Shown here: piece by piece, positions 5,571-35,369 of the stretch
Layout of the letters: each line of letters begins with the position of its first letter
Position numbering within the stretch: the stretch's first letter is position 1
Program-made: the position numbers and the translations under genes
Assembly (NCBI GenBank): GCA_002794775.1
Contig: NBAY01000120.1
Coordinates: 1 to 64,000 of the forward strand
Direction of reading: 5' to 3'
Origin: Porodaedalea pini
Lineage: Eukaryota > Basidiomycota > Agaricomycetes > Hymenochaetales > Hymenochaetaceae
DNA length: 64,000 nucleotides
The notes under the pieces: generated by a model
What the model was told of the DNA's origin: nothing
Seen by the model: the letters and a program-made list of their open reading frames with translations, nothing else
Database searches by the model: none

Positions 5571-6114
5571 GGCCGTGCCTTCATCTTCAAGGTTTATCAG
5601 ACTTCATTTGGCCATCATCATGTCCTTGCACTTTTGTCTGACTTCTGGCGAAGTTGCCAACAGTTCTCGACCTGATATCAACACCATGGAATCCAAGAAT
5701 TGGCGAAATACTGCGTCAGCCATTGCAGGGTTGTTAGCCGGTGTGTTGTATTTGAACTGAGGCCTCTGTATGTCTATTGTTGGATTGGGATGTCCAGGCT
5801 TCAGTTCTGTCCTTTCCCGTGGTGGTGCCACATGGACTTGCATAGGCTCGCTTGGTGGAATAGAGTTGGGTACCGATTCTTCGGTTGTTTTGGGCTTGGC
5901 CGATTCTGTCTCCTTTCCTTTGCCTGTTTCTGTTTCTGGTATGCCCGAGTCCGTAGCTGGTTCGCGTCCCTCTCGTTCTTTCGCTGGTTTCATCGGGTGC
6001 TTAGGTGAGGGAGAGTTGGCTTTTCCTATATTTGCCAGTCTCGCCAATCATCTCTGCTGTCCGTGAGAATTGCTCGTATCATCAAACCGAACCTTTCTTC
6101 CTTCCCCTACGTAT

Positions 6115-20292: not shown

Positions 20293-21881
20293 TTAGGTAT
20301 TCGCACTTTTTGTAAGTTCTTCAATAACAGCGATTGACTTTGATGATCTCGGCTGCAGTGTACAACTGAATGGTTTGGGGTGCCTGCAACAGTATTTAAG
20401 ATGAGCAGAATCGAAGATAGAGAGCACTCACACTGTGTGTCCAGTAGTAAACGCGATCTCCGGTATGAGAGTCTGGCCAGTCGAGTCTTTTTCATGACTG
20501 ATATTGAAAGCCCACAAAACGCTTGCTATCGTCATAAAAAGAGACATTTCAGCGAAATGTTGCCCGGGGCAGGCTCTATAAGCAGTATGAGTGGCATATT
20601 TCTTCCTTTTAGTTCTTACTTACCGACGGCCAAACCCAAAGATGAATGCGGTCGGATCACGCTGTGGTTCTACAGCCTCGTTCCTCTTATCAAATCGTTC
20701 GGGCTTGAAGACGTATGGATCTGGGTATAAGGATGGATCGTGCGACATGCACCTACAGTGACATTAGTTTCTCGAATCAGTATTGGGCGCCTCCAATAAA
20801 TCGACACTTATGAAACCGACCAAACATTTGCCATGACCCATGCTCCTATTTGATAAGATGTCTGTTTAGCATAAATGATGGACCAGGTTCAAGGAATCCA
20901 CAAACCCTTCGGGATAACATATCCTTCATAAACGTCATCTCTGTCTGGGCTATGGACCAAGATCGGAACCACAGGGTTGAAGCAAAGTAACTCCTTGATA
21001 ATACAGTTTATATATGGTAAAGACTGCCAGTCTGACACGCATGGAGCTCGGTCGGAGCCAATCAGCAAATCCAATTCTTTTTGAGCATAAGCCTGGACAT
21101 CTGGATGGGTCACCATCATCATGAAAAAGAGCTTGGTGACTGACACAACCTAAACAACAGTCAGTTTGATCTCAGAACAAGCTTGAATATTACTTACAGT
21201 GTCTGTTCCACCTGGAGACTAGAGTTTCAGTAACTTCACTTGAGTTAGATGGTCACTGATTCTGGACATACCTGAGTACATACTTGCTGCTGTATACATC
21301 AGGATCTCTTCGTCTTCATCGTTAAGTCCAGGGAGTTTCTGAATATTAGTGGATGTGAAGCTAGGGAAGAAGCGGCCGCTCGACTGCAAGTGGTGAGCCC
21401 AAGACGTATACAAGCTGCTTGTCATTGCTCGTACATACCATCGACGATTTAACAAAATCATGAGGAGCGCGTGTGAATGCTTCGCATTTTTTCCTAGCTT
21501 CCCTAGCCCATTCTTTAAATTGCATACAGGGAAGCCAGGATGGCATGTATTGGACTATTCGAACTTCAAGTTCTATGCACTAGAAGATTTTAACATCACT
21601 CACTAATGGGGAATGAATCCACAAGCCAGCGACCTGGCTCAACTGCTTCAGTCGTCAGTCTCCCAAGCTTTTCAGCTAGCTGGACAAAGAAATCATCTTC
21701 GTAATTTATCTCATAACCATATATAAGCTTCAAGATAATAGCGGACGGCAGACTTTAGACACGTGAATGAAAGTGTTAGTTTAAGTGCACATATTTTCGG
21801 AGAGTAGGAAGTACCTTTTGATACTCTCAAAGACATTTCCGGGGTTTGCAAGAAGACGATGAAGAAATCGGTACGTTTCTT
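20293..21881 (-). pseudogene. Cytochrome P450, 3' half (separated by insertion)
   Basis: This is the C-terminal two-thirds of a microsomal class II P450 on the minus strand. From 21881 downwards it shows YRFLHRLLANPGNVFESIKR, SAIILKLIYGYEI, the EPGRWLVDSFP segment, an I-helix GGTDT split by introns near 21190-21215, and the K-helix region at about 20990. Next come [21 protein letters not shown] (PERF-type motif) and the heme loop [17 protein letters not shown] with its cysteine, split by an intron near 20580. It ends EELTKSANT with the stop at 20293-20295. The conserved ExxR of the K-helix reads E-L-L-C: the arginine is now cysteine, which alone should abolish heme stacking. The 5' half lies 12.9 kb away at 34751-35369. 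Confidence 0.9.
21874..21881. repeat. Target-site duplication, left copy (CGTTTCTT)
   Basis: CGTTTCTT directly precedes the left terminus of the palindromic element. The P450 coding frame confirms it as genuine target sequence. Confidence 0.9.
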
Positions 21882-21954
21882 CACATCAGGCTACCCCTCT
21901 GAGCAGACCAAGTAGGTCTATTCGTACACACAACTAATTGACCATTTAGGTATT

Positions 21955-22175
21955 GAGCCTGGGCATGCCCAATCTGCTGGGCACTCCCAGTGGGTGCGGG
22001 TTGGGTGTGCCCAATTTTTTTTACTGTGGGAAAGTTGGGTGCACCCAGATCATTTGGGCACTCCCAACTGGGCCTGCCCAGTTTTTGGGCACACCCAGTG
22101 GGAGTGCCCTGGGAGTGCCCAGATATGTCACTGTCACTGACTGTCTGGGGGACTTTTGGGCACACCCAATTTGTT
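21955..22175. repeat. Subterminal GGGCAC/GTGCCC cluster, left
   Basis: About twelve copies of TGGGCAC, GTGCCCA or GGGAGTGCCC words lie within 300 bases of the left end, many forming small palindromes such as TTGGGCACTCCCAA. Such clusters near transposon ends often bind transposase. That role is inferred. Confidence 0.8.
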
Positions 22176-22179
22176 TTTG

Positions 22180-23040
22180 CCATAAAATCTAGGGGCTTTA
22201 TAAATGTTGTATTTTATTGTTTTTGATCCTACAATTTAGTGATCTTGCTATTGACCATTGGCATGAATTGAATTTTGGTCAAGATTAGTCTGCATCAGAC
22301 AGGAAAGAATGCTGAGCATGCTAGACACACAGGACAAAAAGATATTTGTTGCTATTAGAAAGACTAAGATAATAAAAATAATAGAGATAGTATTGAACAG
22401 TTCTATATACTGTAAGACAAATGGAGAAATAGGGAAATTGTACAGCAGTATGAGAGAAATGAAAATAAATATGAGTCAGCTAAAAGTGTAATGACTACTT
22501 AAGAAATCATTAATGATATTCTAACATTAAACATTGGGAATCAAGCTCCAGCATTCTAACTATATTAGAGAGATTATATGTCATAGGCTCTATGAGAAGT
22601 TCTAACTAGAGTGACATAGCTGCACTGGACACTTAAGTAGAGCAATTGAAAACTGAACAAGTGCAAAGGTCTGATACATTAGGATTAGTTTGAATGCCCA
22701 AGTAGAATAGAGAGTATAAACTAAGAGGGAAACTGAGATAGAAATGTAGAAAGAGTGTAAGCCCACTAGAGCATTCTTATCATTTCTAACATGTTGCTGA
22801 CCTTCTGAACATCATAACATAACTTTGAGATACTAAGCATCTAACACTCTGAGATACACAAAGTATCAATACAGTGTAAAATCCTAGGATGAAGAGAACA
22901 AGAAAGGGAAGAGATTTGAAGTTAAAATGAAAGAGAGACTTGAAAGCAGTCAGACTTGAGCTGTGCTCAAATATCAGGCCTGGACTACTAAGCTTAAAAG
23001 ATTAGATATGACTAGTTGACTGTATCTAAATCTTTTACAG
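22180..23040. other. A/T-rich segment in left arm (mirror 33592-34452)
   Basis: Low-complexity A/T-rich sequence with only short frames, including a lysine/isoleucine-rich 60-codon one at 22309-22491. No recognisable gene. Confidence 0.6.
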
Positions 23041-23044
23041 GTAC

Positions 23045-23600
23045 CTAGTTGAGTATACTCAGTATACCCAACTATTTGGGAGTGCCCAATTATCTGGGGG
23101 TGCCCAGTTGGGCACGCCCAGCTATCTGGGGGTGCCCAAGTTGGGAGTGCCCAACTATCTGGGGGTGCCCAGTTGGGAGTGCCCAATTATCTGGGGGTGC
23201 CCAATTGGGCACGCCCAACTATCTGGGGGTGCTCAATTGGGCACGCCCAACTATCTGGGGGGGCCCAGTTGGGTGCGCCCAACTATCTGGGGGTGCCCAG
23301 TTGGGAGTGCCCAACTATCTGGGGGTGCCCAATTGGGCACACCCAACTATCTGGGGGGGCCCAGTTGGGTGCGCCCAACTATCTGGGGGTGCCCAGTTGG
23401 GTGCGCCCAACTATCTGGGGGTGCCCAGTTGGGCGTGCCCAACTATCTGGGAGTGCCCAGTTGGGCACACCCAATTATCTGGGGGTGCCCAACTGGGTGC
23501 ACCCAACTATCTGGGGGTGCCCAACTGGGTGCACCCAATTATCTAGGGGTGCCCAGTCAGGTACATCCAATTATCTGGAGGTGTCCAGTTAGGTACACCC
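23045..23600. repeat. Minisatellite of palindromic GTGCCC units, left arm
   Basis: Around twenty tandem units of roughly 26-28 bases, consensus GCCCAACTATCTGGGGGT plus GCCCAGTTGG with variable GCAC/GAGT/GTGC centres. Each unit contains a short near-palindrome of the type TTGGGCRYGCCCAA. All three plus-strand frames stay open for over 130 codons only because the unit lacks stop codons. Confidence 0.9.
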
Positions 23601-23639
23601 AAATGTCTGAGAGTACCTAGCTATATAAGGTCTTTTTTG

Positions 23640-24720
23640 ATTCCTGCCTTAGAATCATTTTTTAAAATGCAAAAAATCATTATGTCATGAAAATTAAATA
23701 AGTCTAGAATGGAAGCCTTAATAATTCTATAGATAATTTCTCAAGCATTTTGTTCTAGACTCTGCATCTTGGCAGCTTTGCTCTGAAGACAAATCAATAC
23801 ACTACAATCATTGGCCCGACACCAGAGCTTCCACAAGATTAAGGACAAGAAAGCATAAAACTTCATTTTGAAGAGATTACCACCCTGCTCCTCAATAGTG
23901 CTCTGTATCTTCTCAATTGCATGCTCAAGACACTCAATTGCTGCATACCGCAAACTCAAAATAAGTATAGAGTGAGACAATTACAACAAACACAGCACAC
24001 ATTGTCAGTAGCATTTGTACCCAGCACACAGAGAGGCAGTGAAATGAGCTTTGCCTTGATAGGTACCACCTCAGTGCTCACCACCTCACCTGTCTGATAA
24101 TATCAATGCCCATGTCCATATAGCACATTAACTCAATGTCTGCATGCAGCTTGATTGGCTACAGTAGTTGGCCACCACATGATCATCACCATCAGCTGTG
24201 CGAATGTTGCCAGTAACAGCAAGTTCAACAGCATTGTGAAGACCTTCTCCAGCTCCATCAGTATGAGCTTGAATGCATCATACAGATGGCCATATGTCTT
24301 GCCCAGCAGCCACCATCACTATTTCCTTCTTGTCCTCACCCGTTGCCTCCAGTTTTGCAGGTGTGGTGCTGGACTGGCCCTCAGAGATCTCCTCTGACAA
24401 AAGTTTGGATGCAACATGTCATAATATGGATGCAACCATCTTCTCTTCACATTTTGTAATGTCCTCCAGTGATACACAACACTTACTCAGATCAAAGTAT
24501 CCTTCAAGGATAACAAATGAATGACTGAGACTGATACAACAGATACAACAAGAGACAGACCCTTCCCCTTGTCCACATGTAGGATGACAATGATCTCTTT
24601 CCTTCCAACACAGATCAGCCTTTGAATTGAACAAGTTCACCTGCAAGAAAGCTCTGAGAGTAGAATCATCCCCTTGATGTTGTCACATTCAACCTGTATA
24701 TATCATGAATGACAGTCAGT
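23640..24720 (-). other. Exon-like unrecognised sequence in left arm (mirror 31912-32992)
   Basis: Read on the plus strand in the right arm, an acceptor-like ATGCAG at about 32690 is followed by a 66-codon frame starting AIECLEHAIEKIQSTIEEQG and ending KMQSLEQNA. Other short open pieces lie at 31986-32213 (cysteine-rich) and about 32340-32500. These look like exons of a degraded gene, possibly the element's own or captured. I recognise no family. Confidence 0.4.
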
Positions 24721-24721
24721 A

Positions 24722-26831
24722 TTAAGTCACATCGGCCTCTGACCCGACACTCAAGCCCAAGTTGGACAAATAGTTCAAATCTGTACTCCATGCGGGACTC
24801 CACACACCATTAGTACTGTTATTGAAGTTATAGCTATAATGATAGCTACATGACACCACACACAGTATCTCAAGCATTGGTTCACCAAGTGAGAGTGGCA
24901 AGTACAAAAAGCACACTGTCAGCTCTTCAAGTGGGACAGGCATCGGGTCAGACGACAATGGTGTCTGACGGAAAGCGGAAAAAGCAATGTTCGTTGTGCA
25001 CTGAGTGCCGCGTGCTGGTGAGCTGCAATGATCGTGAGAGGGCGGCACACTCCGCACGGCTGCGCCATCTGGCAGCGTAGCAGCACACCTGAGCTCTGTT
25101 CGCGAACCCTGCCTTTGTCTGCGTACGGCCAAATTCCGGACTATTTGCATCGGACAAGGGTGGACTCGGGAAGTGCATCGCGTCACGTGCTGCAGATTGT
25201 TGGCAGTGAACCAAATGCGATTGTTGATTCACCAAGTGAGAGCGGCGAGTACGACAGGCAGAATGTCAGTTTTTTGAGCGGAACGGGCATCGGTCAGACA
25301 ACAATGGTGTCTGTGATGCAAGCGCGGAAGAAAGGAATGTTTGCTGTGCACTGAGCGCCGCAATGACCGCGAGAGGTGGACCAACAAACGAGAACGGCAA
25401 CGATCCTGGGGATCAATAGTGGGGCAGCACGCTCCGCACGGCCGCATCACCTGGCAGCGTCGCAGCATGTCTGAGGTACTCCGTTTGCCATCCCTGCCTT
25501 TGTCTGCGCGCGGCCAGACTTCAGACTTGCGCCTGCATCTGGCAAGGGTGGACTCGGGAAGTGCCCCGCGTTTGTGCACTGCAGAAACCGGAGACGATCC
25601 AAATGCATTCGTACCCTCGCTTTTCGTGCGTTGCATGTTGCGTGACTTCTCTTCCTGCGGCAGCGTAGTGCTCTTGCCGACCCAGAGACACCACCCTAGG
25701 GCATCGCCCAATGCGCGTTAGCAGCGTTCAACCACGCGTGATGGGACCGGAGAGCTTTGCCCATGCTCGATTCAAATAGCATCGATCCTGTAAGAATCTT
25801 GATACCACAACGAGTGCGGCGACGAAAGTGCGCCGCGGGCGAAGAAGCGGCGATGACAGAGGTGACAGCGGCGTGAACGGTTTTCCAAGGATCTTACGAC
25901 GCTTGTCGTTAGACTGCCCTTGAGTCTGCATCTGCTGAGTTAATGGAAGCGAAGTGTCCATATGGTAGACTGTCGGCACGCGCGATGTGTCGGAGGGGTC
26001 CATTGACGTCAGCTCTGTCGGAAGACCGCAGGGGTTGGACGTGTCCGAAGAGGTATTTGCCTTTGACGAGAGAGACGCCTCGCCTTCCCTCTTATCCAAC
26101 TCCGGCTCGCCCCTCACTCCCGTGCTGATCTTCTCCTTCTCCGCGAGCCCCGTCACCTTCCCCCGCACCACCCCGATGTAGCAGAGCGCCGACTGCAGGA
26201 CGCTACGTCTCGTGCGTGAACGGCGAGGCGAGTGCGATGCAGTGCGTATCCGACGAAGTGCGCAAGCGTATTCGGTATCACTGGTGCCCCTCCTGATCCT
26301 GCCGTTGCGGTAGCGGGGGAACGCGAGACGACTGCGGTCGAGGACGATGTGGAAGAGGTGGAGGACGACGGAGGAAGGATCTCGGGGCAGTCGAAGGTAT
26401 GGCTGACGAAGCGCGCGCAGAGCTTGCTGATGTCTTCGTGCCCGTAGTAAGTGTCGACTGCCGGTGGGGGTGCTGCCGGCGCGGGGTGGTGCGAGTGGTG
26501 TGCGCGCGGGACTGCCGATGACTGTTTTTTTGTCGAGCGTTTTCGGCGCGGTCGGAGGGAAAAAAAAGTGATAGAGAAAAAGACAGCGATCAACAGCCGC
26601 TCATCACTCAAGTATCAGAGATCGGGGGGAAAGAGGGGGGATGCTTACAGAACTCGAGGTAGACGCTGCGGCAGCGGCGGACGCAGAAGACGATTTCGCA
26701 GGTGGAGGCGGGGCGTACGTCGCGCGGTGCACGCGCCGGAAGGGCGAGTGGTTCGAGCTGGCACTCGACGGTGATATCGAATGCGGATGCGGATGGGGGT
26801 GGGGATGGCGCGGGGCGTGGACGGTGGCCAT
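24722..26831 (-). pseudogene. Captured Pcl/PHO80-like cyclin pseudogene, left arm
   Basis: Minus-strand copy of the cyclin remnant described in full for 29801-31910. Start codon at 26831, final stop at 24722. Sequence and lesions are the same as in the right arm except for rare substitutions. Confidence 0.75.
24880..25569 (-). repeat. Tandem duplication of cyclin 3' sequence, left arm
   Basis: Mirror of 31063-31752, with copies at 25242-25569 and 24880-25185. Confidence 0.8.
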
Positions 26832-27085
26832 ATTCGCTGCAGCGGGCTCTCTGGCTCTGGACGTTGACGAGCGTCTGTGAGCGTCGAAGGACAGGTGGAG
26901 TTGATGCGTGAGAAGAGGTCGCTGCGAATGTTTTGATCGGAACGAGATCCTTCTCGGACACAACGGTTGCGTCGCGTTCGCCGGACCGCTCAATGAGAAG
27001 GGCGGATGGGAAAACGGCTGACGTCGATGTTGAAGCGTGTGGATCGTCAAGGGGGGCAGGAGGAAGAGGCGAGGAACACGTGCTG

Positions 27086-27358
27086 CGTGAACAGGGCGAG
27101 GGAAGTTGAACCACACCAGTGCGGCAGAGACGGAGGGAAGAGTGACCAGCAGAAAGGAGCACCCTGCTTCATCGGGAAGCCCTGCTTGTCGTTTCCGCCA
27201 GAGACGCGGAAGACGTAGCCCTTGAACTCATCACCGAGCAAGTCGCTGGGGACACCTGGGACATCTTCTTGCCGTGGAAAATGCGGTAACGACGCTCATC
27301 GTCGATGTTGATCGTCTTTTGCTGGCCCATCGCCAGGTCAGCGATGTCGACACTTCAT
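27086..27358 (-). pseudogene. RPS6: Captured 40S ribosomal protein eS6 fragment, left arm
   Basis: Mirror of 29274-29546 and identical as far as I can see. It carries the N-terminal part only. Confidence 0.8.
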
Positions 27359-27359
27359 G

Positions 27360-28163
27360 GCCGGTGGTGTCTTGAGGAGCTCGTCGTGTTCTGTCCCTTC
27401 AGGCAAGCAAAAAAAATGATGAAAAGTAATTATTAGTATATTCAAATAGTTTTTATGATTATTTTTTTTGCTTACCTTGAGTGTGTGGCTGGTGGGACAG
27501 CCGTGCTCGTCGTCGATGGTGAAGACGAAACGACACGAACAACGACGACGCGTTGGTTGTGTTGCCTGATTTGGCTGATCGCCGCGTCTCAAACAAGCAA
27601 TCAAAGCATTCCGATTCTTTCGGAAATCTCAAAAGTCTCAGCTGTTGGCCTCAGACAAATTCTACGGACGCGTTTAAAAATACAAAAAAATATGGAATAG
27701 TTTTATTATGTATGTATCTATAGCATAGCTAAGAATTACGCGTCCAACGCGTTTTTTTATGGAGTCATAAATACAACAGTAATCTTGACATGCAGCACCA
27801 GGCCTCCAGAAGCATACACAAAAGTACAATATACCCTGAAAGGCCTGACACATATTCTATCATGAAGTAAGTGATACATTGTGTATGTATGCAAGGTTTC
27901 AAGCCAATCAGACAAGAACTGACTTCATGATAGAGAAGGAGGTGGTTTCATGAGATCTTCTGAATCTGAGTGTTTTGTATATCCTGTTCCCAGTTTTTAC
28001 TTTGAGGGCATATAAAATATTGAGCATATTTAGGGATATCGTTTTTATGTCTCTGTAAATTTACAGGTATCCAGCCTCAGTGGTTGGAGCTGGGGGAATT
28101 GCAAAACATCGAAAATCTTGGGTTTAAGAGGTTCAGAGAAAGCATATATTCATGTTGTTGCTT
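27360..28163. other. Inner A/T-rich segment of left arm (mirror 28469-29272)
   Basis: Contains an exon-like piece reading RFVFTIDDEHGCPTSHTLK in the right arm (about 29095-29156), followed by a donor-like GTAAGC. The family is not recognised. The remainder is A/T-rich without genes. Confidence 0.5.
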
Positions 28164-28468
28164 GGTTCAAAGTATGAGAAGCTCAACAAATTTAGTTATT
28201 TGTATTTAAGTATGGTCCAAGAAAGATATCCAACCCTTAGTTTTGTGGGTGAGGGAAAAGTTGGGAATGGGGAGTGAAATGAGAGGTGATGCAGTTCATG
28301 TTTTGTGAAACTCGACGCAAATCCAAGAAACACAGAGCAGTTTTGCATGTATTTCCTCTCCCCCTTCAGAACTTTCCTCTAACTCCGAGATCTAGCACCT
28401 GATTACATTTATTGTAGTCATATAAAGTACTAATATCTATTTTATAGAGCTTCCTGAAGTTTGGAATA
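28164..28468. other. Unique central spacer of the palindrome (305 bp)
   Basis: Not repeated elsewhere in the window. It is A/T-rich on the right side and purine-rich on the left (GGGTGAGGGAAAAG...). A TATA-like CTATTTTATAGAG lies at about 28437-28449. No open frame of note. It would form the loop if the element folded as a hairpin. Confidence 0.85.
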
Positions 28469-29273
28469 AAGCAACAACATGAATATATGCTTTCTCTGAA
28501 CCTCTTAAACCCAAGATTTTCGATGTTTTGCAATTCCCCCAGCTCCAACCACTGAGGCTGGATACCTGTAAATTTACAGAGACATAAAAACGATATCCCT
28601 AAATATGCTCAATATTTTATATGCCCTCAAAGTAAAAACTGGGAACAGGATATACAAAACACTCAGATTCAGAAGATCTCATGAAACCACCTCCTTCTCT
28701 ATCATGAAGTCAGTTCTTGTCTGATTGGCTTGAAACCTTGCATACATACACAATGTATCACTTACTTCATGATAGAATATGTGTCAGGCCTTTCAGGGTA
28801 TATTGTACTTTTGTGTATGCTTCTGGAGGCCTGGTGCTGCATGTCAAGATTACTGTTGTATTTATGACTCCATAAAAAAACGCGTTGGACGCGTAATTCT
28901 TAGCTATGCTATAGATACATACATAATAAAACTATTCCATATTTTTTTGTATTTTTAAACGCGTCCGTAGAATTTGTCTGAGGCCAACAGCTGAGACTTT
29001 TGAGATTTCCGAAAGAATCGGAATGCTTTGATTGCTTGTTTGAGACGCGGCGATCAGCCAAATCAGGCAACACAACCAACGCGTCGTCGTTGTTCGTGTC
29101 GTTTCGTCTTCACCATCGACGACGAGCACGGCTGTCCCACCAGCCACACACTCAAGGTAAGCAAAAAAAATAATCATAAAAACTATTTGAATATACTAAT
29201 AATTACTTTTCATCATTTTTTTTGCTTGCCTGAAGGGACAGAACACGACGAGCTCCTCAAGACACCACCGGCC

Positions 29274-29546
29274 ATGAAGTGTCGACATCGCTGACCTGGC
29301 GATGGGCCAGCAAAAGACGATCAACATCGACGATGAGCGTCGTTACCGCATTTTCCACGGCAAGAAGATGTCCCAGGTGTCCCCAGCGACTTGCTCGGTG
29401 ATGAGTTCAAGGGCTACGTCTTCCGCGTCTCTGGCGGAAACGACAAGCAGGGCTTCCCGATGAAGCAGGGTGCTCCTTTCTGCTGGTCACTCTTCCCTCC
29501 GTCTCTGCCGCACTGGTGTGGTTCAACTTCCCTCGCCCTGTTCACG
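29274..29546 (+). pseudogene. RPS6: Captured 40S ribosomal protein eS6 fragment, right arm
   Basis: The fragment covers the eS6 N-terminus. After ATGAAG at 29274 comes [20 protein letters not shown], then [11 protein letters not shown], then in a shifted frame [20 protein letters not shown] and [11 protein letters not shown], then a deleted joint into [11 protein letters not shown], matching the eS6 GHSCYRPRRTG segment. Defects include one extra base after ATGAAG, a frameshift after MSQ, a missing HRVRLL-like block and no C-terminal half. Codon choice is GC-rich and typical of a highly expressed host gene, unlike the A/T-rich surroundings. It is followed within about 250 bases by the cyclin start. 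A GTAAGC donor and an acceptor-like GCCTGAAG at 29156-29236 suggest an upstream intron was captured too. Confidence 0.8.
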
Positions 29547-29800
29547 CAGCACGTGTTCCTCGCCTCTTCCTCCTGCCCCCCTTGACGATCCACACGCTTC
29601 AACATCGACGTCAGCCGTTTTCCCATCCGCCCTTCTCATTGAGCGGTCCGGCGAACGCGACGCAACCGTTGTGTCCGAGAAGGATCTCGTTCCGATCAAA
29701 ACATTCGCAGCGACCTCTTCTCACGCATCAACTCCACCTGTCCTTCGACGCTCACAGACGCTCGTCAACGTCCAGAGCCAGAGAGCCCGCTGCAGCGAAT

Positions 29801-31910
29801 ATGGCCACCGTCCACGCCCCGCGCCATCCCCACCCCCATCCGCATCCGCATTCGATATCACCGTCGAGTGCCAGCTCGAACCACTCGCCCTTCCGGCGCG
29901 TGCACCGCGCGACGTACGCCCCGCCTCCACCTGCGAAATCGTCTTCTGCGTCCGCCGCTGCCGCAGCGTCTACCTCGAGTTCTGTAAGCATCCCCCCTCT
30001 TTCCCCCCGATCTCTGATACTTGAGTGATGAGCGGCTGTTGATCGCTGTCTTTTTCTCTATCACTTTTTTTTCCCTCCGACCGCGCCGAAAACGCTCGAC
30101 AAAAAAACAGTCATCGGCAGTCCCGCGCGCACACCACTCGCACCACCCCGCGCCGGCAGCACCCCCACCGGCAGTCGACACTTACTACGGGCACGAAGAC
30201 ATCAGCAAGCTCTGCGCGCGCTTCGTCAGCCATACCTTCGACTGCCCCGAGATCCTTCCTCCGTCGTCCTCCACCTCTTCCACATCGTCCTCGACCGCAG
30301 TCGTCTCGCGTTCCCCCGCTACCGCAACGGCAGGATCAGGAGGGGCACCAGTGATACCGAATACGCTTGCGCACTTCGTCGGATACGCACTGCATCGCAC
30401 TCGCCTCGCCGTTCACGCACGAGACGTAGCGTCCTGCAGTCGGCGCTCTGCTACATCGGGGTGGTGCGGGGGAAGGTGACGGGGCTCGCGGAGAAGGAGA
30501 AGATCAGCACGGGAGTGAGGGGCGAGCCGGAGTTGGATAAGAGGGAAGGCGAGGCGTCTCTCTCGTCAAAGGCAAATACCTCTTCGGACACGTCCAACCC
30601 CTGCGGTCTTCCGACAGAGCTGACGTCAATGGACCCCTCCGACACATCGCGCGTGCCGACAGTCTACCATATGGACACTTCGCTTCCATTAACTCAGCAG
30701 ATGCAGACTCAAGGGCAGTCTAACGACAAGCGTCGTAAGATCCTTGGAAAACCGTTCACGCCGCTGTCACCTCTGTCATCGCCGCTTCTTCGCCCGCGGC
30801 GCACTTTCGTCGCCGCACTCGTTGTGGTATCAAGATTCTTACAGGATCGATGCTATTTGAATCGAGCATGGGCAAAGCTCTCCGGTCCCATCACGCGTGG
30901 TTGAACGCTGCTAACGCGCATTGGGCGATGCCCTAGGGTGGTGTCTCTGGGTCGGCAAGAGCACTACGCTGCCGCAGGAAGAGAAGTCACGCAACATGCA
31001 ACGCACGAAAAGCGAGGGTACGAATGCATTTGGATCGTCTCCGGTTTCTGCAGTGCACAAACGCGGGGCACTTCCCGAGTCCACCCTTGCCAGATGCAGG
31101 CGCAAGTCTGAAGTCTGGCCGCGCGCAGACAAAGGCAGGGATGGCAAACGGAGTACCTCAGACATGCTGCGACGCTGCCAGGTGATGCGGCCGTGCGGAG
31201 CGTGCTGCCCCACTATTGATCCCCAGGATCGTTGCCGTTCTCGTTTGTTGGTCCACCTCTCGCGGTCATTGCGGCGCTCAGTGCACAGCAAACATTCCTT
31301 TCTTCCGCGCTTGCATCACAGACACCATTGTTGTCTGACCGATGCCCGTTCCGCTCAAAAAACTGACATTCTGCCTGTCGTACTCGCCGCTCTCACTTGG
31401 TGAATCAACAATCGCATTTGGTTCACTGCCAACAATCTGCAGCACGTGACGCGATGCACTTCCCGAGTCCACCCTTGTCCGATGCAAATAGTCCGGAATT
31501 TGGCCGTACGCAGACAAAGGCAGGGTTCGCGAACAGAGCTCAGGTGTGCTGCTACGCTGCCAGATGGCGCAGCCGTGCGGAGTGTGCCGCCCTCTCACGA
31601 TCATTGCAGCTCACCAGCACGCGGCACTCAGTGCACAACGAACATTGCTTTTTCCGCTTTCCGTCAGACACCATTGTCGTCTGACCCGATGCCTGTCCCA
31701 CTTGAAGAGCTGACAGTGTGCTTTTTGTACTTGCCACTCTCACTTGGTGAACCAATGCTTGAGATACTGTGTGTGGTGTCATGTAGCTATCATTATAGCT
31801 ATAACTTCAATAACAGTACTAATGGTGTGTGGAGTCCCGCATGGAGTACAGATTTGAACTATTTGTCCAACTTGGGCTTGAGTGTCGGGTCAGAGGCCGA
31901 TGTGACTTAA
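29801..31910 (+). pseudogene. Captured Pcl/PHO80-like cyclin pseudogene, right arm
   Basis: Start ATG at 29801 gives MATVHAPRHPHPHPHPHSIS, a Ser/Pro/Ala-rich tail, an intron (donor near 29983, acceptor near 30110), then the cyclin box. This begins YYGHEDISKLCARFVSHTFD, continues NTLAHFVGYALHRTRL, and after a frameshift near 30434 reads LQSALCYIGVVRGKV, then FVAALVVVSRFLQDRCYLNR with AWAKLSG. A further frame gives ERC-stop-RALGDALGWCLWVGK, where family members have CERALG. The LQDRxYxNRAW and GWxLWVGK signatures fit basidiomycete cyclins that partner the Pho85-type kinase. At least one frameshift and one nonsense change make it a pseudogene. The 3' region is tandemly duplicated, and the last frame ends SVGSEADVT at 31910. 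Confidence 0.75.
31063..31752 (+). repeat. Tandem duplication of cyclin 3' sequence, right arm
   Basis: Copy A (31063-31390) and copy B (31447-31752) share long blocks, such as CACTTCCCGAGTCCACCCTT, CAGACAAAGGCAGGG and GACACCATTGT, and both end CTCTCACTTGGTGAA. They have diverged considerably, so this duplication is older than the palindrome. It is mirrored at 24880-25569 in the left arm. Confidence 0.8.
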
Positions 31911-33031
31911 TACTGACTGTCATTCATGATATATACAGGTTGAATGTGACAACATCAAGGGGATGATTCTACTCTCAGAGCTTTCTTGCAGGTGAACTTG
32001 TTCAATTCAAAGGCTGATCTGTGTTGGAAGGAAAGAGATCATTGTCATCCTACATGTGGACAAGGGGAAGGGTCTGTCTCTTGTTGTATCTGTTGTATCA
32101 GTCTCAGTCATTCATTTGTTATCCTTGAAGGATACTTTGATCTGAGTAAGTGTTGTGTATCACTGGAGGACATTACAAAATGTGAAGAGAAGATGGTTGC
32201 ATCCATATTATGACATGTTGCATCCAAACTTTTGTCAGAGGAGATCTCTGAGGGCCAGTCCAGCACCACACCTGCAAAACTGGAGGCAACGGGTGAGGAC
32301 AAGAAGGAAATAGTGATGGTGGCTGCTAGGCAAGACATATGGCCATCTGTATGATGCATTCAAGCTCATACTGATGGAGCTGGAGAAGGTCTTCACAATG
32401 CTGTTGAACTTGCTGTTACTGGCAACATTCGCACAGCTGATGGTGATGATCATGTGGTGGCCAACTACTGTAGCCAATCAAGCTGCATGCAGACATTGAG
32501 TTAATGTGCTATATGGACATGGGCATTGATATTATCAGACAGGTGAGGTGGTGAGCACTGAGGTGGTACCTATCAAGGCAAAGCTCATTTCACTGCCTCT
32601 CTGTGTGCTGGGTACAAATGCTACTGACAATGTGTGCTGTGTTTGTTGTAATTGTCTCACTCTATACTTATTTTGAGTTTGCGGTATGCAGCAATTGAGT
32701 GTCTTGAGCATGCAATTGAGAAGATACAGAGCACTATTGAGGAGCAGGGTGGTAATCTCTTCAAAATGAAGTTTTATGCTTTCTTGTCCTTAATCTTGTG
32801 GAAGCTCTGGTGTCGGGCCAATGATTGTAGTGTATTGATTTGTCTTCAGAGCAAAGCTGCCAAGATGCAGAGTCTAGAACAAAATGCTTGAGAAATTATC
32901 TATAGAATTATTAAGGCTTCCATTCTAGACTTATTTAATTTTCATGACATAATGATTTTTTGCATTTTAAAAAATGATTCTAAGGCAGGAATCAAAAAAG
33001 ACCTTATATAGCTAGGTACTCTCAGACATTT

Positions 33032-33587
33032 GGGTGTACCTAACTGGACACCTCCAGATAATTGGATGTACCTGACTGGGCACCCCTAGATAATTGGGTG
33101 CACCCAGTTGGGCACCCCCAGATAGTTGGGTGCACCCAGTTGGGCACCCCCAGATAATTGGGTGTGCCCAACTGGGCACTCCCAGATAGTTGGGCACGCC
33201 CAACTGGGCACCCCCAGATAGTTGGGCGCACCCAACTGGGCACCCCCAGATAGTTGGGCGCACCCAACTGGGCCCCCCCAGATAGTTGGGTGTGCCCAAT
33301 TGGGCACCCCCAGATAGTTGGGCACTCCCAACTGGGCACCCCCAGATAGTTGGGCGCACCCAACTGGGCCCCCCCAGATAGTTGGGCGTGCCCAATTGAG
33401 CACCCCCAGATAGTTGGGCGTGCCCAATTGGGCACCCCCAGATAATTGGGCACTCCCAACTGGGCACCCCCAGATAGTTGGGCACTCCCAACTTGGGCAC
33501 CCCCAGATAGCTGGGCGTGCCCAACTGGGCACCCCCAGATAATTGGGCACTCCCAAATAGTTGGGTATACTGAGTATACTCAACTAG
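33032..33587. repeat. Minisatellite of palindromic GTGCCC units, right arm
   Basis: Mirror copy of 23045-23600 with the same unit number and order. This is notable because such arrays normally change length quickly. Confidence 0.9.
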
Positions 33588-34456
33588 GTACCTGTAAAAG
33601 ATTTAGATACAGTCAACTAGTCATATCTAATCTTTTAAGCTTAGTAGTCCAGGCCTGATATTTGAGCACAGCTCAAGTCTGACTGCTTTCAAGTCTCTCT
33701 TTCATTTTAACTTCAAATCTCTTCCCTTTCTTGTTCTCTTCATCCTAGGATTTTACACTGTATTGATACTTTGTGTATCTCAGAGTGTTAGATGCTTAGT
33801 ATCTCAAAGTTATGTTATGATGTTCAGAAGGTCAGCAACATGTTAGAAATGATAAGAATGCTCTAGTGGGCTTACACTCTTTCTACATTTCTATCTCAGT
33901 TTCCCTCTTAGTTTATACTCTCTATTCTACTTGGGCATTCAAACTAATCCTAATGTATCAGACCTTTGCACTTGTTCAGTTTTCAATTGCTCTACTTAAG
34001 TGTCCAGTGCAGCTATGTCACTCTAGTTAGAACTTCTCATAGAGCCTATGACATATAATCTCTCTAATATAGTTAGAATGCTGGAGCTTGATTCCCAATG
34101 TTTAATGTTAGAATATCATTAATGATTTCTTAAGTAGTCATTACACTTTTAGCTGACTCATATTTATTTTCATTTCTCTCATACTGCTGTACAATTTCCC
34201 TATTTCTCCATTTGTCTTACAGTATATAGAACTGTTCAATACTATCTCTATTATTTTTATTATCTTAGTCTTTCTAATAGCAACAAATATCTTTTTGTCC
34301 TGTGTGTCTAGCATGCTCAGCATTCTTTCCTGTCTGATGCAGACTAATCTTGACCAAAATTCAATTCATGCCAATGGTCAATAGCAAGATCACTAAATTG
34401 TAGGATCAAAAACAATAAAATACAACATTTATAAAGCCCCTAGATTTTATGGCAAA

Positions 34457-34677
34457 AACAAATTGGGTGTGCCCAAAAGTCCCCCAGACAGTCAGTGACA
34501 GTGACATATCTGGGCACTCCCAGGGCACTCCCACTGGGTGTGCCCAAAAACTGGGCAGGCCCAGTTGGGAGTGCCCAAATGATCTGGGTGCACCCAACTT
34601 TCCCACAGTAAAAAAAATTGGGCACACCCAACCCGCACCCACTGGGAGTGCCCAGCGGATTGGGCACGCCCAGGCTC
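34457..34677. repeat. Subterminal GGGCAC/GTGCCC cluster, right
   Basis: Mirror copy of the left cluster. It differs at two sites (34657 and 34667), where the right arm keeps CpG and the left arm has TpG/CpA. Confidence 0.8.
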
Positions 34678-34750
34678 AATACCTAAATGGTCAATTAGTT
34701 GTGTGTACGAATAGACCTACTTGGTCTGCTCAGAGGGGTAGCCTGAAGTG

Positions 34751-34758
34751 CGTTTCTT
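34751..34758. repeat. Target-site duplication, right copy (CGTTTCTT)
   Basis: The second copy of CGTTTCTT follows the right terminus. One more C also matches, so a 9-bp duplication is formally possible, but 8 bp gives symmetrical termini. Confidence 0.9.
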
Positions 34759-35369
34759 CCTCTATGACGGACAAATAAACTTCCTCAGAACGTGGACTCA
34801 GAAACGAGACCATAAGCCTCCTTGTTTCCCTGCTACGATTCCCAGCAGGGAGAAAAAGTGCTGTTTTATCTCGTCCGACAAGTTTAGCCATAGGCTTCAA
34901 AAGGGGCACATTTAGTTGCACCGGATACGAGCTGAGAAGAATGATGCAAACCAGTTCAGGACGGCTGGAATGTATTGTAGACCGCTTTTCGAGAAGATCC
35001 ACGGCGACTCGGTGATCATTCAGGATGACAAACTGCCTCCCGAATATTGTGAAGTATGATATAGGCCCTGGAATAATGCGGGGTGAGTTCCATTCGGACT
35101 GATCGTCAACACAGTTGTATCCATACCGTATAGCTCTTTCCACTTCGCATAATGCTTCGGCGGCTCATCATGCGGCACTTGGAAGAGGTTCCCTACGAAT
35201 GGAAGGGACGCTGGGCCTTAAAATTGTCAGCTCATGTTTTTAAACCTAGTATACGAGTTCCGGTACCTGGGGGAAAGCGTGACCTGTGACGGGAGTGAAG
35301 ACTGTAGATAGCGATAGCAGAAGCTAAGAAGAACGCAGTGTAAATGAAGTACTCATTATAGAGGAGCAT
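34751..35369 (-). pseudogene. Cytochrome P450, 5' half (separated by insertion)
   Basis: The start at 35369 gives a membrane anchor MLLYNEYFIYTAFFLASAIA, then the proline-rich hinge after RHRSRFPPG, a PSVP/VGNLFQVP exon, YFTIFGRQFVILNDHRVA, DLLEKRSTIHSSRPEL, and GRDKTALFLPAGNRSRETRR (helix C region, normally WxxxR). The frame ends in VIEEET at the 8-base duplication. The codons continue without loss into the left half (YRFLHRLL at 21881 downwards) once the element and one duplication copy are removed, so the gene was one continuous P450 before the insertion. Without the heme-binding half this fragment cannot be active. Confidence 0.9.

Follow-up and report, generated by a model that had tools for sequence, protein, structure and literature searches.

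The 64,000-nucleotide stretch of Porodaedalea pini DNA analysed here (contig C120, positions 1-64000; hereafter the window) contains a palindrome at 21882-34750, and this palindrome is one of about fifty giant palindromic elements in the same genome. On their sequence features, these palindromes are best filed as non-autonomous KDZ (Kyakuja-Dileera-Zisupton) elements of a new architecture. All the results refer to a single genome assembly, of 53.27 Mb in 201 contigs, and to its sequence only.

As for the structure of the window element, a base-by-base comparison with its own reverse complement gave a left arm at 21882-28163 (plus strand) and a right arm at 28469-34750 (minus strand), both of 6,282 bp, separated by an asymmetric centre, the spacer or loop, of 305 bp at 28164-28468. 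The arms have four mismatches, at 21885, 21965, 21975 and 24304; apart from these, pairing is kept up to 28163 and breaks down only next to the loop. The initial inverted-repeat search had placed the arms at 21882-28171 and 28461-34750, with an identity of 100% after rounding. Two copies of the 8-bp target duplication CGTTTCTT enclose the element at 21874-21881 and 34751-34758. Its right terminus (34735-34750, minus strand) is the exact 16-bp terminus of the family, CACTTCAGGCTACCCC, and the left one (21882-21897, plus strand), CACATCAGGCTACCCC, differs from it by one base. Each arm has a tandem array of a 32-bp unit with many GGGN4CCC motifs, at 23076-23609 (plus strand) and, mirrored, at 33023-33556 (minus strand); the arm has 38 such motifs, all of them within its outer 2 kb. 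An element that is nearly all long inverted repeat, with an array in each arm, has the layout of the foldback-like class. The first-pass annotation had given two arms of 6,282 bases and a spacer of 305 bases, and its numbers are exact; it had also reported host gene fragments in the arms, and each arm indeed holds a piece of the gene for ribosomal protein S6 (positions 35-67 of PF01092), at 27155-27253 (minus strand) and, mirrored, at 29379-29477 (plus strand). Its further claim, that the whole palindrome behaves as one transposed unit, is borne out by the shared termini and centre, by the target duplications that the elements have of their own, and by the many copies described below.

The search of the terminus against the genome, which the same annotation had proposed, returned 118 occurrences with at most one mismatch (62 forward, 56 reverse) and none for the reversed control, a result that excludes chance and reveals a family. 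The centre of the window element is matched at 89-100% at 40 places (the best 40 of 55 candidates scored), and the S6 fragment is found in mirrored pairs at at least 50 places, together with seven unpaired fragments. The fifty elements are counted by this mirrored fragment and not by verified termini, and copy numbers are lower bounds where only the best candidates were scored. In 31 elements it was possible to place the termini as well as the centre; these measure 10.7-28.3 kb and together make up about 473 kb, or 0.9% of the assembly. Their left and right arm lengths are at most 150 bp apart in 22 elements and at most 600 bp apart in 25 (range 5.2-8.5 kb), and among these 25 the two lengths have a correlation of 0.989. 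Both arms were read for ten elements besides that of the window, while those on contigs C37 and C24 were read from one arm only. Two further observations concern the shape of single copies: at C50:61983-97119, the positions of termini and of Hsp90 and S6 fragments suggest a palindrome inserted in the right arm of an older one, and the elements on C19, C69 and C90 each have one arm longer by 6.3-6.5 kb, which could represent insertions of one other mobile element.

The link with KDZ transposons comes from two elements that encode the transposase. The KDZ transposase domain (PF18758) has 77 matches in the genome and two of them, inspected by eye, lie inside exact pairs of termini: C28:19200-19916, within an element of 22 kb (3533-25584), and C2:524049-524513, within one of 29.6 kb (501266-530822). 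The domain is present once in each, and hence neither element is palindromic through its middle; both have very long inverted repeats, which in C28 measure 4,022 and 3,960 bp (98.3% identity) and in C2 no less than 2.4 kb (98.5%). The ends of the C28 element match those of the window element over 229-239 bp at 96-98%, with an identical 16-bp terminus, and the ends of the C2 element match those of C28 over about 330-360 bp at 74-77%. The inverted motif GGGN4CCC is found 38, 31 and 51 times in the outer arms of the palindromes on C120, C37 and C24, and 33, 29, 53 and 51 times in the four repeats of C28 and C2; it is found 0 times in the sampled inner arms and interiors and once in the remaining 51 kb of the window. 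This distribution suggests a candidate binding site, and the 32-bp array may accordingly be regarded as a candidate transposase-binding array. The copies read end in CACTT..AAGTG, with CACAT at the left end of the window element, in agreement with the CA..TG termini given for Kyakuja. The strict count of target duplications, made on twelve elements, gave 8 bp in six (four palindromes, C28 and C2), 7 bp in five and 6 bp in one; by eye, four of the 7-bp duplications reach 8 bp when one terminal base is taken as shared by element and target. No 8-mer was shared by any of the 132 mismatched flank pairs used as a control.

As for the transposase itself, the exons of C28 gave 12 matches in the genomic DNA, full-length only in C28 and C2 (82%), the other ten being of 444 nucleotides or less at 68-71%. 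A protein search with the KDZ exon of C28 returned 751 relatives, with a best identity of 60%, and PF18758 was present in all 120 among the matches listed. By eye, none of the 77 KDZ domain matches falls in the 31 measured palindromes. Shared termini, repeats and arrays with the KDZ-encoding elements, along with the absence of the KDZ domain from the measured palindromes, make the latter best read as non-autonomous KDZ derivatives. The first-pass annotation had seen no transposase in the palindrome, and no transposase domain was found there; it also knew of no named fungal family with this layout, and here it stands corrected, as the palindrome has relatives in the C28 and C2 elements and its layout belongs with the KDZ transposons, the architecture alone being new.

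The palindromes fall into subfamilies that share ends, arrays and inner parts and differ in the host gene fragments that they carry: Hsp90 in C37, the ketoacyl-synthase and ACPS parts of a fatty-acid synthase in C144, and the XPB helicase in C24. The S6 fragment is common to these three and to the window element; the native genes are elsewhere, S6 on C81 and Hsp90 on C3 (C3:769700-771430). Compared with the native gene over 1,089 nucleotides, intron included, the Hsp90 fragment has an identity of 95.8% in C37 and 95.3% in C144. In the elements that bear it, this fragment forms an extra stretch of about 1.08 kb at the position equivalent to 27293-27302 of the window, and the window element is without it. 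The arm stretch at 23971-26177 has no nucleotide match in the C144 subfamily and partly matches C37; at its place, the C144 subfamily has a different stretch, with the fatty-acid synthase fragments, mirrored in the right arm. Pack-TIR elements are defined by host gene fragments enclosed in a transposon that has inverted repeats, and with fragments of four host genes (S6, Hsp90, fatty-acid synthase and XPB) the family fits this definition. Seven GC-rich open frames of the window arm gave a single Pfam match, below the cut-off, and are probably due to chance. Between the captured Hsp90 exons of C37 and the native gene there are 26 synonymous and 4 nonsynonymous changes; the latter are too few for free drift after capture, which may point to constraint on the fragment or to a donor from a different allele or lineage.

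The two arms of one copy evolve in concert, as judged from a comparison of 20 arms, those of ten elements in the window's subfamily, at 5,602 ungapped positions that exclude the arrays. For 18 of these 20 arms the closest sequence is the partner arm within the element, both exceptions being the arms of C40; departures from the majority base occur in both arms in 90 cases and in one arm only in 33, of which 21 are in C40. Among 11 elements, the two inner arms are identical in seven and differ at 1 position in C120, 6 in C35, 19 in C40 and 29 in C144, while between elements of the window's subfamily inner arms differ by 0.04-0.60%. The Hsp90 fragment follows the same rule: among the matches listed, 20 of the 50 elements that have an S6 pair carry it in both arms, 30 in neither and none in one arm alone. 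As the subfamilies compared share the centre, the palindrome predates their divergence; mirrored changes then require that one arm is copied from the other, or that the palindrome forms anew from a single arm time after time. Copying during repair, or fold-back re-formation, would be at work. As for C40 (C40:9399-22106), the closest match of its left arm is C29a, with 6 differences, and that of its right arm is C56, with 14, which suggests exchange between elements.

We consider it probable that the palindrome is a non-autonomous KDZ element whose repeats meet at the loop, which is moved whole by the transposase of its relatives and whose arms are homogenised by copying. This scheme joins features read from the sequence (structure, copy number, termini and arrays common to the KDZ-encoding elements, duplications, mirrored captures and concerted arms) by three inferred steps, namely mobilisation by KDZ in trans, a fold-back origin and a repair step. 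The two inverted repeats would extend inward until they meet at the small asymmetric loop, and a related KDZ element with the same ends (C28, perhaps C2) would supply the transposase, so that the palindrome would move in one piece and its insertion would produce the target duplications of 7-8 bp. The founder palindrome probably arose from a KDZ-type element that suffered an internal break; by folding back next to the loop it would have copied the end it still had, thereby gaining two functional ends. Fold-back priming near inverted repeats gives inverted duplications in yeast (PMC10622511). Gaps left by later excision, or breaks inside the element, would then be mended on the template of the opposite arm, or by conversion within the palindrome, and this arm-to-arm copying would turn captured host fragments into mirrored ones; for the capture itself, template switching during repair is the route proposed for Pack-TIR elements (PMC8277862). 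A bolder and more doubtful version is that the mobile unit is effectively a single self-templating arm, with one arm rebuilt from the other by fold-back at each transposition or gap repair. If so, a mutation or a captured gene in one arm would become two mirrored copies, and the two copies of itself held by each molecule would keep both ends functional, which could explain why about 50 palindromes were found against two KDZ-encoding elements with these ends.

Several points weigh against this scheme. Compared with the outer end of the window element, the ends of the C2 element match only in the terminus and the arrays (among the longest 14 matches listed per pair), and the KDZ match of C2 spans positions 50-201 of the model only; the interior of C28 was read in part, and a complete working transposase gene in it is putative. 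The strict 8-bp duplications are found in only 6 of the 12 elements. Not all changes are mirrored, since one arm is 5-13 kb longer than the other in 6 of the 31 elements; array lengths are unequal between the arms in some copies, and the arms of C40, with 19 inner-arm differences, are of different lineages. Finally, both movement and its mobilisation by a KDZ transposase are deduced from sequence.

Other explanations are to be weighed against a mobile KDZ derivative with homogenised arms. Fold-back artefacts occur in long reads (PMC12870357), and an artefact of this kind, or one of assembly, would give inverted arms, but it does not agree with a centre that recurs at 40 places (the best 40 of 55 candidates), nor with the flanks: in twelve elements (ten palindromes and the two KDZ elements) these are not mirror copies, except for a weak 69-bp inverted match of 80% in C29a, and all twelve have a direct duplication of 6-8 bp, against none of 8 bp in the mismatched flank pairs. 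The recurring centre and the non-mirror flanks with direct duplications make an assembly artefact very unlikely, to the point that its chance is close to nil. It is also highly improbable that another superfamily with 8-bp duplications, such as hAT, is the mobiliser; the usual hAT duplications are of 8 bp (PMC12730594) and the genome has ten matches to the hAT dimerisation domain, yet by eye none of the ten is inside the terminus pairs listed, whereas two of the KDZ matches are, in elements with the shared ends and arrays. hAT was rejected on this ground, the transposase searches having covered KDZ and hAT only. As regards the likeness of the arms, the youth of the family might account for it with no homogenisation at all, and the difference of only 0.04-0.60% between inner arms in the window's subfamily does speak of a recent expansion; a single founder, however, predicts that the divergence between the arms within an element is no smaller than that between arms of separate elements, and instead seven of the 11 elements have no inner-arm difference, 18 of the 20 arms are nearest to their own partner, and Hsp90, mirrored in 20 of the 50 elements, is one-armed in none among the matches listed. 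Mere youth is therefore a distinctly improbable account.

The mode of homogenisation leaves more room for an alternative. The palindrome could be rebuilt from one arm, through a hairpin or fold-back, in every new copy, and not by patchwise gene conversion; the entire inner arms identical in seven of 11 elements, the loss of pairing only next to the loop and the yeast fold-back duplications (PMC10622511) are all consistent with it, but ongoing conversion is expected to give the same pattern, and the mixed arms of C40 fit exchange between elements. On this pattern, which suits both arm conversion and whole-arm rebuilding, we regard rebuilding in every copy as possible, if not probable. A different function has been considered by analogy with Mu killer of maize, in which a single element end gave rise to both ends, with an inverted duplication between them (PMC3440606): the palindromes might be hairpin-RNA loci that give rise to small RNAs, with the KDZ family or the captured host genes as silencing targets. 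The genome does have genes with a Piwi domain (50 matches), and the identity of the captured Hsp90 to the native gene, 95.8% in C37 and 95.3% in C144, would suit this role; however, since none of the 77 KDZ matches lies in the 31 measured palindromes, the transposase mRNA could not be a target, and targets would be limited to the ends and the captured genes. About 50 copies also suggest a parasite rather than a silencer, so that a silencing role appears unlikely. Separately, nine of the Piwi-domain matches have the same split pattern, with open frames of 179 and 142 amino acids, as if an Argonaute-like gene had spread by duplication or with a mobile element.

Compared with known systems, the KDZ1, KDZ2 and KDZ3 elements of Cryptococcus neoformans measure about 9-11 kb, have inverted repeats of 139-241 bp and 4-8-bp duplications, and encode the transposase (PMC12810828). 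The superfamily, the approximate size, the terminal inverted repeats and duplications within that range are shared with the present elements, whereas the KDZ-encoding relatives in this genome have repeats of several kb; the palindromes are made up of arm, and no transposase was found in them. In Laccaria bicolor, the elements Kyakuja-1_LB and Kyakuja-2_LB are described with CA..TG termini, 7-bp duplications, no inverted repeats and a TET/JBP gene (PMC12730594); they share with the present elements the superfamily, the termini and the 7-bp duplications, and differ in that inverted repeats are present here and that this genome has no TET/JBP match above the cut-off. TET/JBP was rejected as a cargo of the present family, its single match in the genome being located on C6, well away from the elements on C28 and C2, and scoring below the cut-off.

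In Drosophila, foldback-like two-repeat elements such as Galileo belong to the P superfamily and have repeats of up to about 1.26 kb, which are 95.2% identical in the copy with the longest ones (PMC3573991). Like the present elements, Galileo has long repeats with internal tandem arrays, its longest-repeat copies are without transposase and some copies are chimeric; the arms described here differ in being of 5-8.5 kb, nearly identical and provided with host gene fragments. Mu killer is a single Mutator-derived locus with a hairpin of about 4 kb that contains transposase sequence (PMC3440606); the resemblance lies in the derivation of its two ends, on either side of an inverted duplication, from a single end of an element, while the present palindromes number about 50 mobile copies, in which no transposase sequence was found. 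As for Pack-TIR elements such as Ssk-FB4, they are DNA transposons that capture gene fragments and amplify them by transposition (PMC8277862); the fragments captured here are instead inside the inverted repeat, and hence doubled and mirrored. Among the open-licence PMC papers listed for palindromes, foldback elements, long inverted repeats, KDZ, Galileo, Mu killer and Pack elements, none has a title or abstract opening on palindromic KDZ elements.

In terms of what is new, the probable mobilising superfamily was already known, as were foldback-like elements elsewhere, and the novelty is the architecture for KDZ. Palindromes of such size are usually regarded as unstable, and here a DNA transposon family thrives in a fungal nuclear genome in the form of palindromes, mostly of 11-17 kb. 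The fifty or so copies are natural replicates for the study of copying between arms and of the capture and doubling of gene fragments. Transcription of the arms, if it occurs, would yield a hairpin RNA matching Hsp90 and other host genes. The range of inverted repeats in KDZ elements, 0-241 bp in the sources cited (PMC12810828, PMC12730594), is widened to several kb, with a candidate binding motif repeated along them.

Finally, the insertion site lies in a P450 gene on the minus strand. The exon split by the insertion is at 34759-35164 and its frame runs on into 21873 and below once the flanks are joined; the downstream P450 exons of the interrupted gene are at 20431-21149 (minus strand; PF00067 by Pfam). 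When the flanks were joined in a script with a single copy of the duplication, a minus-strand frame of 168 amino acids was open across the site, and with the element in place it stops a few codons inside the latter. The insertion into a P450 exon, with an 8-bp duplication and a frame restored upon removal, was thus reproduced as first proposed, with the P450 identity derived from the neighbouring exons: the junction exon by itself has no Pfam match, and the p450 domain was detected in three of the six minus-strand frames of the region, two above the curated cut-off and one just under it (21.9 against 22.8 bits). An empty site was sought in the assembly, and the 600-bp left flank was found only on C120 and C168, both carrying the insertion; the C168 copy is probably a duplicate contig or a second haplotype. 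Elsewhere in the window, a short tandem array at 1607-1738 consists of 13 copies of the 10-bp unit CGGTACGCGT.

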